Source: a virus. Taken from it: a DNA stretch of 36,309 nt. Positions 14,773 to 23,980 of this stretch are shown piece after piece. The notes under the pieces were generated by a model. It ran no database searches. It had not been told where the DNA came from and saw only the letters and a list, made by a program, of their open reading frames with translations. Position 1 is the stretch's first letter; the number at the start of each line of letters is the position of its first letter. Made by a program: the position numbers and the translations under genes. The DNA is taken from the IMG/VR virus record IMGVR_UViG_3300021957_000131, positions 1 to 36,309 of that record; one strand, written 5' to 3'.

Positions 14773-15034
14773 TCTTACTTAACAACCCTTTTGATTCTAT
14801 AGTAGGTTCTGGTTTATCTTTGTCTATGATTTTCTTTAAACCCATAGCTGATAATTTTCTTCCTGTTTGATGTTCTAATATTTCAACTGCTCCTCTTAAA
14901 CTAAAAGCACCTGACTTAACACCATCCTTCATTTCTTTTAATGCTGATACTTCTTTATCAACAATCTCTAATGTTTTATTATCTTCACCTAATCTATAAC
15001 CAAAAGGAATAGTCGAACTATTTCTCTTCATCAT
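14765..15034 (-). CDS. recombinase-domain-like helix-turn-helix protein in the terminase operon
   Basis: Eighty-nine residues. IPFGYRLGEDNKTLEIVDKE followed by a helix, SLRGAVEIL and TGRKLSAMGLKKII closely follows the layout of the Recombinase domain of large serine recombinases (PFGY, a linker, then a helix-turn-helix), but the catalytic Ser domain is absent. Similar small proteins sit next to terminases in cyanophages and pelagiphages as I recall. It could bind DNA at the packaging site or help the small terminase. It overlaps the genes on both sides, so it is translationally linked to them. Confidence 0.65.
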   Translation of the reverse strand: MMKRNSSTIPFGYRLGEDNKTLEIVDKEVSALKEMKDGVKSGAFSLRGAVEILEHQTGRKLSAMGLKKIIDKDKPEPTIESKGLLSKND

Positions 15035-15467
15035 CTATATCAATATCCTCTGCATTAGCATCTATTAATTTCTCTTTAGCAGGTATAATGAATATGCCTG
15101 ATGCTGCTGTATGCGTTACATCAAGCTTATCTCGTTTTGCAATACCCACTCTATCCAACAATGTCTGTGCTGCTTGTAGTTTAGCATTGACTTGTGGTAT
15201 AGGGTCATCACTCTCTAATATCTCCACTAACTTCTGACTGGCTATTGGTGCTGACTTTGCTAGAATCTTTGTGGCAACATCTACTATTTCATCCTTTAGG
15301 GAATCTATAACATTAGACTTTGAACTGTCAGCATACCCTGCTTCTTTTAGAGCTAGGTTTATATTACCTTTAGCAACACCACCGAGTGCTGTTAGAAAGT
15401 GTTGTTGTTGGTCTGTTAGTTTTCTTTGTTTATTATCTGAGTTAGTTGGTAGAAAGTTATTGTTCAT
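15018..15467 (-). CDS. terS: terminase small subunit (putative)
   Basis: A 149-residue protein at the head of the late unit. Residues 15-60 (KLTDQQQHFLTALGGVAKGNINLALKEAGYAD) give a helix-turn-helix of the terminase small subunit type, with a helical middle (SQKLVEILES, AAQTLLDRVGI) for oligomerisation and an acidic C-terminal tail. Position just before the large terminase supports it. The only in-frame start is the ATG at 15465-15467, which has no ribosome binding site. The promoter at 15474-15502 predicts transcription from about that same base, so the message is probably leaderless. Confidence 0.7.
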   Translation of the reverse strand: MNNNFLPTNSDNKQRKLTDQQQHFLTALGGVAKGNINLALKEAGYADSSKSNVIDSLKDEIVDVATKILAKSAPIASQKLVEILESDDPIPQVNAKLQAAQTLLDRVGIAKRDKLDVTHTAASGIFIIPAKEKLIDANAEDIDIDDEEK

Positions 15468-15473
15468 GTATTC

Positions 15474-15502
15474 ATTATAACAAGTTTACATCTAGTTGAC
15501 AA
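15474..15502 (-). promoter_or_regulatory. leftward late-unit promoter, predicted leaderless start
   Basis: TTGTCA (15497-15502, five of six), 17 bases, TATAAT (15474-15479, perfect) on the minus strand. Seven bases after the -10 the sequence is the A of the ATG of the small terminase gene, so the transcript would have no leader. A rightward promoter starts 20 bases away, and GTTGACAA occurs twice (15495-15502 and 15521-15528). Confidence 0.7.
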
Positions 15503-15521
15503 CATTTATTTTGATTTAGAG

Positions 15522-15549
15522 TTGACAAATGCAGAAGCACCTGTATAAT
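15522..15549 (+). promoter_or_regulatory. rightward consensus promoter before the structured region
   Basis: TTGACA (15522-15527) and TATAAT (15544-15549), both perfect, with 16 bases between. The start is expected near 15556. No convincing gene follows for more than 700 bases, so its immediate product is likely a non-coding RNA or a long leader to the early genes. Confidence 0.7.
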
Positions 15550-15555
15550 ATATAT

Positions 15556-15720
15556 ATCAACTCTCCAGGGGGTGAAGCATATAAGTCTATCTGGGGCAGT
15601 CCAGCAATATAGCAAGTCTTATGCGAATCTTTATAGCAGGGCGAGGCTATCTAGTTTACATCTAAAGCTCTGTATTTTGTATGAGCAGTATATATATACC
15701 CCCACCACCCCCCCATGGCA
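15556..15720 (+). ncRNA. candidate structured non-coding RNA
   Basis: The segment is richer in G+C than its surroundings and lies directly after the rightward promoter. Pairings visible by eye: CCA plus GGGGGTG (15565-15574) with CACCCCC (15706-15712) and TGG (15716-15718), closing the whole element; GCATATAAG (15577-15585) with CTTATGC (15618-15624), two bases bulged; inside it CTGG (15591-15594) with CCAG (15601-15604); ATAGC (15633-15637) with GCTAT (15646-15650); GCTC (15667-15670) with GAGC (15683-15686); and a 12-base palindrome at 15688-15699. An alternative helix pairs CTCCAG (15563-15568) with CTGGGG (15591-15596), which could make a switch. The family is not known to me. It might be a regulatory RNA, an origin primer RNA or a leader. 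No energy calculation was made. Confidence 0.5.
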
Positions 15721-15886
15721 CATATGTACCTACCTTATAATGATTCTAATTAGCAACTAAATATATATATAGATATTATATATAATTATTATACTTAAAT
15801 AGCTTTAAATATCTTCCTAGTTTACAGAGATAACAAGATTATCAAGCTTTATAAAGATAAGATAAAAACCCTCAAACAATCTCTAA

Positions 15887-15957
15887 AAATCTCAAGCTTA
15901 CCAACACTAATAACAATATTTCAATACCTCAAAAACCCTTGCCAAATCTCAAGCTTA
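15887..15957 (+). repeat. pair of 14-bp direct repeats (iteron-like)
   Basis: AAATCTCAAGCTTA occurs exactly at 15887-15900 and 15944-15957, start-to-start distance 57 bases, each followed by a CAAC within two bases. A weaker relative, ATCAAGCTTTA, lies at 15841. They could bind a replication or regulatory protein. Confidence 0.5.
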
Positions 15958-15962
15958 ACAAC

Positions 15963-16008
15963 CTAGAATTTTTGAAACTGGGTCGACCCTTTATAGCTTT
16001 AATTCTAG
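15963..16008. repeat. nested inverted repeat around GGGTCGACCC
   Basis: CTAGAATT (15963-15970) and AATTCTAG (16001-16008) are inverted copies flanking a perfect 10-base palindrome GGGTCGACCC (15980-15989). The two centres of symmetry are one base apart. This can form a cruciform or a bound dimer site and lies two bases before the DnaA box. Confidence 0.55.
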
Positions 16009-16010
16009 CC

Positions 16011-16019
16011 TGTGGATAA
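16011..16019 (-). promoter_or_regulatory. DnaA box
   Basis: The minus strand reads TTATCCACA, a perfect match to the bacterial DnaA box consensus, in non-coding AT-rich sequence beside a cruciform-like repeat. Host DnaA binding here would fit origin use or control of the early promoter. A single box can be chance, but its setting argues otherwise. Confidence 0.55.
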
Positions 16020-16248
16020 CTTTAATTATTATGTTGCAATATCTTTTTATTTATTGCAGACCTTTTTTATAAATTTTTATAAGTTTTTAAGCTTAATTTC
16101 TTTTTATATCTTTTATATTTGATTTGCTTTGATTTGCTAAAATAAGCTAATTTTAAGCATATTCTAAAAAGTACTTTTTTGTCGCACCCTAAATCGTCTA
16201 TTATTGTTATATATCAAGCCTTATTTAAGCATCAACTAAAAGTTGTAT

Positions 16249-16277
16249 TTGATTATTTTATTATCTTAAATTATAAC
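16249..16277 (+). promoter_or_regulatory. early promoter, rightward
   Basis: TTGATT (16249-16254, four of six), 17 bases, TATAAC (16272-16277, five of six). The start is predicted at 16284-16285, the A of the ATG of the first early gene, so this message may also be leaderless. Confidence 0.5.
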
Positions 16278-16284
16278 TTTATTC

Positions 16285-17231: not shown

Positions 17232-17960
17232 ATGGTAAAATTAAATTTAGAATATAAAAAACCAGTCAAGCTAACATTTAAAACTGGAAATCCTAAGACT
17301 GATAAAAACTTAAAACAGGAATATAATAAATACTGGATACTTAGATTAAATCTAGCCCCTTATACAATTAGTGGTTACAATGTGTGTCCTAGTGCAAGTA
17401 AGGGTTGTGCTGAAAGTTGTTTGCATACTGCAGGAAATCCAGTATTTCAAAAACAAAAAGACCTAGGAAGGATTAATAGAACTAGATATTATATGCAAGA
17501 CAGGGTTGAATTTCTTAAACAACTTATAAAAGAAATACGAAACCATGAAATCTATTGTAGCAAAAATGGATTTAAACCAGTAGTGAGATTGAATACAACC
17601 TCTGATATACCATGGGAAATTCATGGAATTTTTGAGTTGTTTCCTAATATAACTTTTTATGATTATACTAAAATAAAAAAGCGAGTAATAAAATATTTAA
17701 ATAATATGTATCCAAAAAATTATCACTTGACATTTAGTATGCATGAAACTAATTATGATGATTGCATGGAGGTATTAAATAAGGGTGGCAATGTTGCAAT
17801 GGTATTCAGAAATAATTTACCAGAAAATTATAAAGGTTTTCAAGTGGTGAATGGTGATGAAAGCGACTTGAGATTTTTAGACCCACGAAATACAATCGTA
17901 GGTTTAAAAGCTAAAGGCAAGGCAAAAAAAGATACTACTGGATTTGTAGTAAATAGTTAA
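17232..17960 (+). CDS. GP88-like phage protein with conserved cysteine cluster
   Basis: A 242-residue protein. The start TGNPKTDKN, LNLAPYTISGYNVCPSASKGCAESCL and the following RINRTRYYMQDRVEFLKQLIKEI match the pattern I recall for the GP88 family, first seen in mycobacteriophages and common in marine phages. Cys52, Cys59 and Cys63 form a CxxxxxxCxxxC cluster that could hold a metal or Fe-S centre. Later conserved-looking segments are RLNTTSDIPWEI, FYDYTKIKKRV and HLTFSMHETN, which resemble a TIM-barrel-like layout. The enzymatic activity is unknown. It carries the repeated GGAGGT leader. Confidence 0.7.
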   Translation: MVKLNLEYKKPVKLTFKTGNPKTDKNLKQEYNKYWILRLNLAPYTISGYNVCPSASKGCAESCLHTAGNPVFQKQKDLGRINRTRYYMQDRVEFLKQLIKEIRNHEIYCSKNGFKPVVRLNTTSDIPWEIHGIFELFPNITFYDYTKIKKRVIKYLNNMYPKNYHLTFSMHETNYDDCMEVLNKGGNVAMVFRNNLPENYKGFQVVNGDESDLRFLDPRNTIVGLKAKGKAKKDTTGFVVNS

Positions 17961-22515: not shown

Positions 22516-22682
22516 CAGAGGACATGATGAAAGAAATACTTGAAGACTGGATGAGTTGGAAGTATGACATTATTGAAATGAATAATTCAGAGTGGACACA
22601 AAGGGATGAGAGTAAGTTAGCAATGATAGAAGCTATACTCATGGAGCAACTTAATATAATAAAAGCTAGGGATAGAAGATGA
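22512..22682 (+). CDS. 56-aa hypothetical protein
   Basis: ATG at 22512 (ATGA overlap with the stop before it), stop TGA at 22680 that overlaps the homing endonuclease ATG. The product is helical and acidic at first (MTEDMMKEILEDWMSWKYDI), ending in RDRR. AAAGGTATG gives only a weak ribosome site, so translation is probably coupled. Confidence 0.5.
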   Translation: MTEDMMKEILEDWMSWKYDIIEMNNSEWTQRDESKLAMIEAILMEQLNIIKARDRR

Positions 22683-23041
22683 ACAACTTAAATGAAGAAC
22701 TGATATATGCAACAGCATTTATAGATGCTGAAGGACATATAGAATTTAAAACAAGAGATAAAAAAAATGGAAGAGGTAAGATATATCCATGTAAATCTAT
22801 TAGAGTTGAGGTTACTAATACAGATTTTAAACCTGTGAAAGATATGATAGATACATTTGGATGTGGTTTTCTTTCTTATCCTAAGAGGAGGTATAAAAAA
22901 AATGGTGAGTTAGGTAAGCAACAAATAAAATGGGGAGCATCACATAGAGATTGTTACAAAGTTATTAAAATGATTTTACCCTTTTTAAAAACTGAACAAA
23001 GAATAAATGTAGCTAATGAAATTATAAATTATTATGAGTAA
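22679..23041 (+). CDS. LAGLIDADG-type homing endonuclease, single motif
   Basis: A 120-residue protein. Residues 8-19 (LIYATAFIDAEG) match the LAGLIDADG motif with the catalytic acidic residue in the DAEG end. The following strands (IRVEVTNTDFKPVKDMIDTFGCG, then the basic RRYKKNGELGKQQIKWGA) match the DNA-binding sheet of the half-size family. One motif and this length mean it works as a homodimer. It cuts long DNA targets and spreads its own gene. It is freestanding and not inside an intron as far as can be seen. The ATG overlaps the upstream stop by four bases and its stop overlaps the next gene, so it is well fitted into the operon. Confidence 0.75.
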   Translation: MNNLNEELIYATAFIDAEGHIEFKTRDKKNGRGKIYPCKSIRVEVTNTDFKPVKDMIDTFGCGFLSYPKRRYKKNGELGKQQIKWGASHRDCYKVIKMILPFLKTEQRINVANEIINYYE

Positions 23042-23728: not shown

Positions 23729-23980
23729 ATGTCAGGAAGAAATTATAAATGGTTGGAGAAAGAAATGTTAACACCAAGACAATTAAAGTTATTTAAATAT
23801 TTAGTAGCTTATAAAAAGAAGCATGAGATAATGCCTAAGTTTGATGAGATAAGAGAGTACATGAGTATCAAATCAAAAAGTGGTGTTTATCAAATGCTTG
23901 GGTACATAGAGTGGAAAGGATATATTAAAAGGTATCCTGCACACGCAAGAGCAATAACAATTTTAAAGGAGGTAGCTTAA
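23729..23980 (+). CDS. LexA-type winged-helix DNA-binding protein
   Basis: Eighty-three residues. LTPRQLKLFKYLVAYKKKHEIMPKFDEIREYMSIKSKSGVYQMLGYIEWKGYIKRYPAHARAI is the N-terminal DNA-binding domain of LexA in order: TPRQ helix, P-F-EI turn-helix, S-S-V---L--L recognition helix, K-GYI and ARAI wing. The protease domain that follows in LexA is missing; the chain ends after the wing. A transcription regulator of phage or host genes is the natural reading. It sits just before the promoter for the replication genes, so that promoter is a likely target. Confidence 0.8.
   Translation: MSGRNYKWLEKEMLTPRQLKLFKYLVAYKKKHEIMPKFDEIREYMSIKSKSGVYQMLGYIEWKGYIKRYPAHARAITILKEVA

Follow-up and report, generated by a model that had tools for sequence, protein, structure and literature searches.

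Within a stretch of viral DNA of 36,309 nucleotides (IMG/VR record IMGVR_UViG_3300021957_000131, the whole of which is referred to here as the window), the segment at 15556-15720 is a non-coding conserved phage element located directly past a strong promoter. The explanation that best accommodates the observations, and that we consider probably correct, if only just, is that the element forms part of a cis-acting control region of HTVC103P-type pelagiphages, placed between divergent early and late genes and comprising sites for a regulator together with a probable origin of replication.

The window is a fragment of the genome of an HTVC103P-type pelagiphage, that is, of a phage infecting Pelagibacter (SAR11). 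With the Pelagibacter phages HTVC103P and HTVC104P it shares 84% identity in the terminase large subunit, the segment itself matches both genomes (MN698242 and MN698243) at 83-84% identity, and the gene order is the same. HTVC103P-type and HMO-2011-type phages have packaging and structural genes in common (PMC8528129), and no convincing DNA copy of the element was found in HMO-2011-type genomes. The segment sits in a 0.8-kb gap, bordered on one side by the leftward late operon and on the other by the early genes, which run rightward from 16285. The first gene of the late operon is terS (15018-15467, minus strand), encoding the terminase small subunit (PHROG 2538, E 2.7e-4), whose counterpart is labelled ‘putative terminase small subunit’ in the HTVC103P and HTVC104P records. 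The gap upstream of terS in these two phages is homologous, but it is unannotated there apart from gp89 of HTVC104P, a minus-strand hypothetical gene of 129 bp (L001 3094-3222) annotated inside the conserved element, for which the relatives give no support. The window codes for a family A DNA polymerase and for a primase-helicase resembling that of T7; no gene for a phage RNA polymerase was recognised in it. The product of the early gene at 23729-23980 has a LexA-type DNA-binding domain, and such a domain is also annotated in HTVC103P. The early genes also include one at 17232-17960, coding for a GP88 family protein (E 4e-49) with no role assigned, and 22679-23041, coding for a small protein with a weak match to LAGLIDADG endonucleases (E 0.005, below the Pfam cut-off).

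The gap contains two promoters arranged back to back which, as read from the sequence, would separate the oppositely transcribed operons. The rightward early promoter (TTGACA-16-TATAAT, 15522-15549, plus strand) matches the sigma-70 consensus at 12 of 12 positions, with a predicted start at about 15556, and both hexamers are nearly invariant among 64 non-redundant relatives, so that the perfect promoter reported by the initial annotation can be regarded as real. The leftward promoter (TTGTCA-17-TATAAT, 15474-15502, minus strand), with a TG ahead of its -10 hexamer, matches at 11 of 12 positions and is kept in the homologues. Its predicted start coincides with the ATG of terS (15467-15502), which suggests that the terS mRNA is leaderless.

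Homologues of the element were gathered with a terS search and by scanning 2.9 million viral contigs twice for motifs. More than 150 loci were found to carry it, yielding 91 distinct sequences after trimming, and in all loci from the exact motif scan it adjoins the terS start, as far as these could be aligned. Twelve further loci from the second motif scan were discarded as chance matches within other sequences. Conservation is organized in blocks, corresponding to the two promoters, the leader motifs, the CTAGTTTACA box, a dyad and a tract of G/C runs, after which similarity is lost. According to the conservation profile, it resumes at about +5, just past the predicted start. The conserved leader (15556-15650, plus strand) is defined in the 91 homologues by the motifs CYCUCCAGGGGGUGAARCA, CUGGRNCAGUCCAGCWAUAUARCAA and GCAGGGCGA; it is non-coding and without a supported fold. 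The first ~95 bp, and perhaps up to about 160 nt of the element, are presumably transcribed as an untranslated early leader. Because the conserved block reaches upstream through the terS promoter and also slightly beyond 15720, the limits 15556-15720 are not natural ones.

At its right edge, the tract of G/C runs (15700-15732) is C-rich in the window and G-rich in some relatives. C-runs (15700-15715 in the window) become G-runs between close relatives while their surroundings are unchanged (L087 versus L092 and L093; also L111 and L125), and the same switch occurs among HTVC115P-type loci (L243, L244 and L246 versus L245 and L247). The tract is followed by a short module (15733-15757) found in both orientations among close relatives: TTATAATGATTCTAATTAGCAA, of 16-21 bp (15731-15757 in the window), appears inverted in place or swapped for another module in loci whose flanks are 91-94% identical (L108, L168, L143, L129, L099 and L121), which marks the site as a hot spot of micro-inversion.

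Several features that had been noticed in the segment itself were confirmed. It is distinctly less AT-rich than its surroundings, with a GC content of 0.44 at 15550-15649 versus 0.27 upstream and 0.19 downstream. A coding gene was rejected, given that the leader lengths of the 91 homologues are evenly spread modulo 3 (33/29/29) and that no frame is kept open in most of them, in agreement with the early view that no credible gene lies here. Likewise, the statement that the segment matches no known RNA family was upheld by a search with the Rfam covariance models, which gave nothing at gathering score for the window, nor for six related loci, and only chance matches at E values up to 10. Neither a tRNA nor a tmRNA was found in the segment.

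One pointer to recognition sites is a motif that occurs twice in the leader, as TCCAG-N7-ARCA at 15564-15579 (variable base 15577) and as TCCAG-N6-ARCA at 15600-15614 (variable base 15612). The two variable bases carry the same letter in nearly all homologues (67 G/G, 18 A/A and 1 C/C), with three A/T exceptions. On a tree derived from the adjacent coding sequence, 5 and 6 changes were counted at 15577 and 15612, with a joint count of 6, which means that nearly all changes are shared. Since the letters are identical, this is not a Watson-Crick pair, and the pattern fits two recognition sites for one partner; a symmetric non-canonical RNA contact between both bases may also be conceived. In some homologues the two copies are separated by insertions of 15-16 nt. 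A second repeated element is the CTAGTTTACA box, present as a conserved block at 15651-15660 (plus strand). Two copies with one mismatch each lie at 15481-15490 and 15492-15501, and an exact one at 15817-15826. Across the 36-kb window, sequences within one mismatch of CTAGTTTACA are found only in this gap; four matches do not exceed chance for the whole window, and it is their clustering that constitutes the signal. The box reads CTAGTTAACA in most HTVC115P-type copies, and the third box differs in a few loci. Finally, direct reading reveals a conserved dyad at 15679-15697, which takes the form TGTATA-N7-TATACA in many relatives and is less perfect in the window.

Beyond the element extends an AT-rich stretch (15760-16284, 17-35% GC) that is a candidate for the origin and includes a perfect DnaA box at 16011-16019, which is present in 9 of 44 homologues. 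Many viral contigs end in this neighbourhood, at positions scattered from 15600 to beyond 16300, and these ends probably represent assemblies broken by AT-rich DNA.

In the control-region model, host sigma-70 RNA polymerase would initiate at terS in the leftward direction and at about 15556 in the rightward one, as indicated by the promoter consensus and its conservation. Along the conserved DNA at 15480-15720, a regulator encoded by the phage or its host would recognise in cis a series of sites, namely the CTAGTTTACA boxes, the TCCAG...ARCA repeats and the TGTATA dyad, and this array would set the choice between early and late transcription, or its timing. A candidate for such a regulator is the phage protein with the LexA-type DNA-binding domain encoded at 23729-23980, and the control region, together with the AT-rich stretch beyond, may well serve as the replication origin. 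In favour of this model, HTVC033P-type phages arrange the region alike around conserved repeats of another kind, TATTCC/GGAATA palindromes. Several observations fit the model poorly. The 15-16 nt insertions between motif copies break a fixed phasing on the DNA; a conservation that restarts after the predicted start is what would be expected of a transcribed element; and a terminator found at about +80 in HTVC115P-type relatives, described below, makes sense only for a transcript. Furthermore, the DnaA box is restricted to a minority of homologues, and one group (L183, L194 and L209) breaks the rule of identical letters at 15577 and 15612.

These last considerations direct attention to the RNA, which the initial annotation had pictured as five nested sets of complementary arms within a G/C closing helix, with an alternative helix allowing two states. 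The arms are indeed present as letters, and yet they do not rise above chance. The segment has a minimum free energy of -37.9 kcal/mol versus a mean of -41.6 for dinucleotide shuffles (z +1.0), 168 of 200 of which fold as well or better, so excess stability is absent. Among 44 homologues, the mean z was -0.51 for 15556-15720, the first ~95 nt alone averaged -0.39, and the minus-strand RNA showed no excess stability either (z +0.6). No significant Watson-Crick covariation was detected among the variable columns of the 91 homologues under a tree-preserving null, the listed pairs included; planted compensating pairs were mostly recovered where at least 20% of the letters vary, while the invariant core columns carry no power and, hence, no information. 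RNAalifold proposed 7 weak pairs (-3.8 kcal/mol), none of them with a two-sided change.

Most of the individual helices fared no better. The arms of the closing helix (15565-15574 with 15706-15718) are complementary in the window, but the helix is not kept in relatives: its pair counts are not clearly above those of slid controls, and it is lost in L087, L111 and L125, where the 5' arm is G-rich as before and a G-run has taken the place of the C-run on the 3' side. The alternative helix (15563-15568 with 15591-15596) consists of complementary letters, but it was rejected, since no pair shows a two-sided change, the extended form being counted. When arms were swapped between phages, a phage's own arms gave no gain for P0 (p 0.42), P1 (p 0.31) or the alternative helix (p 0.94), and only a slight advantage for P3. 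A hairpin at 15660-15690 did beat its swapped arms (p 0.0035, uncorrected for kinship), and it is weakly folded in most relatives. A small P1/P3 fold was suggested in L094 and L066; as P1 and P3 together gave 10 two-sided cells versus 4.7 in shuffles, yet 9 in a slid control, this model was not accepted. The nested five-helix RNA with its G/C closing helix and two states is thus not supported, and nothing in the evidence points to the inhibitor of host RNA polymerase that had also been imagined. The suggested role as an RNA primer for replication is conceivable. This case illustrates that complementarity between arms in a single sequence can collapse entirely once relatives are compared.

A role for the transcript that does not depend on this fold deserves separate consideration, and here the relatives are informative. 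In 18 of 27 HTVC115P-type loci an intrinsic terminator (a 9-bp stem followed by a T-run) is predicted ~80 nt past the early promoter, as in HTVC115P itself (L211 421-444, minus strand) and 17 relatives, where a very short transcript is expected; in some of these loci, by direct reading, GGGGCU in the leader is complementary to AGCCCC in the arm of the terminator. No other observation argues as strongly for a role of the transcript itself, and this predicted terminator is what makes a function as leader RNA or as small RNA possible. The first of these alternatives, which we regard as a real though rather improbable one, is a cis-acting leader RNA that works on the early transcript, either as an attenuator or as a put-like antitermination signal that modifies RNA polymerase, which would thereby cross the long AT-rich non-coding stretch and read the early genes. 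The position directly past the early promoter, the conservation from about +5, the P1/P3 fold of two loci and a tendency of the possible pairs towards G-U compatibility in the plus-strand sense all speak for it. Against it stand the fold tests described above and the finding of a terminator-like site in only 1 of 111 HTVC103P-type stretches, the window having none. In addition, the leaders of HTVC033P-type phages give no fold or covariation signal, although the HTVC033P sequence taken singly reached z -2.0.

A more specific version, which appears unlikely, would be a phage leader RNA of a new class, in which a small junction with the symmetric non-Watson-Crick contact between 15577 and 15612 would switch between readthrough and termination, the terminator having been lost in HTVC103P-type and kept in HTVC115P-type phages. 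Less likely still is a free small regulatory RNA with targets in trans, be they mRNAs or proteins of the host or the phage: a strong promoter followed by ~160 nt of conserved non-coding sequence would suit it, as would the prediction that HTVC115P-type phages make a short, terminated transcript, but the clade of the window lacks the terminator and no stable fold was detected. The least probable reading, a cos or pac packaging site recognized by the terminase small subunit beside terS, as in lambda, could draw on the invariant adjacency to terS, the G/C-rich tract with its partial dyad, the repeated motif changing in step and the frequent contig ends nearby, but these ends do not define one cut position, the start of the HTVC103P record at the first base of gp01 most likely reflects the annotators’ choice rather than a terminus, and in HMO-2011-type phages terS lies inside an operon with no such gap beside it.

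The sequence family appears to be undescribed in Rfam and in the literature found, phage promoter control regions as such being well known; nor was any description found there of gene timing and replication start in HTVC103P-type phages. Their SAR11 hosts are among the most abundant cells of the ocean, and the element offers a precise conserved target for studying such timing, with its promoters, repeated boxes and one coupled pair of positions.

Three known systems invite comparison. Origins of the T7 type are primed by a transcript, and the candidate origin described here resembles them in the succession of a promoter and AT-rich DNA and in the T7-like replication proteins, and differs in that no gene for a phage RNA polymerase was recognised in the window. 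The put RNA of phage HK022, of ~70 nt, folds into two firm stem-loops and binds the zinc-binding domain of the beta-prime subunit of RNA polymerase (PMC9378689), and it brings about antitermination without a protein factor. Both put and the present element are conserved, non-coding and comparable in length, and both directly follow an early phage promoter. Unlike put, the present element shows no supported firm stem-loops, its consensus being limited to the few weak pairs mentioned above, and no second copy was seen at the leftward promoter; the resemblance is one of position only. Among tailed phages, the lambda immunity region exemplifies a divergent early/late control region. In the pelagiphages the repressor-like gene lies kilobases from its presumed sites, and both regulator and sites are putative; the likeness is one of layout, and consists of back-to-back sigma-70 promoters, short repeats over or beside them, a repressor-type protein and a candidate origin nearby.
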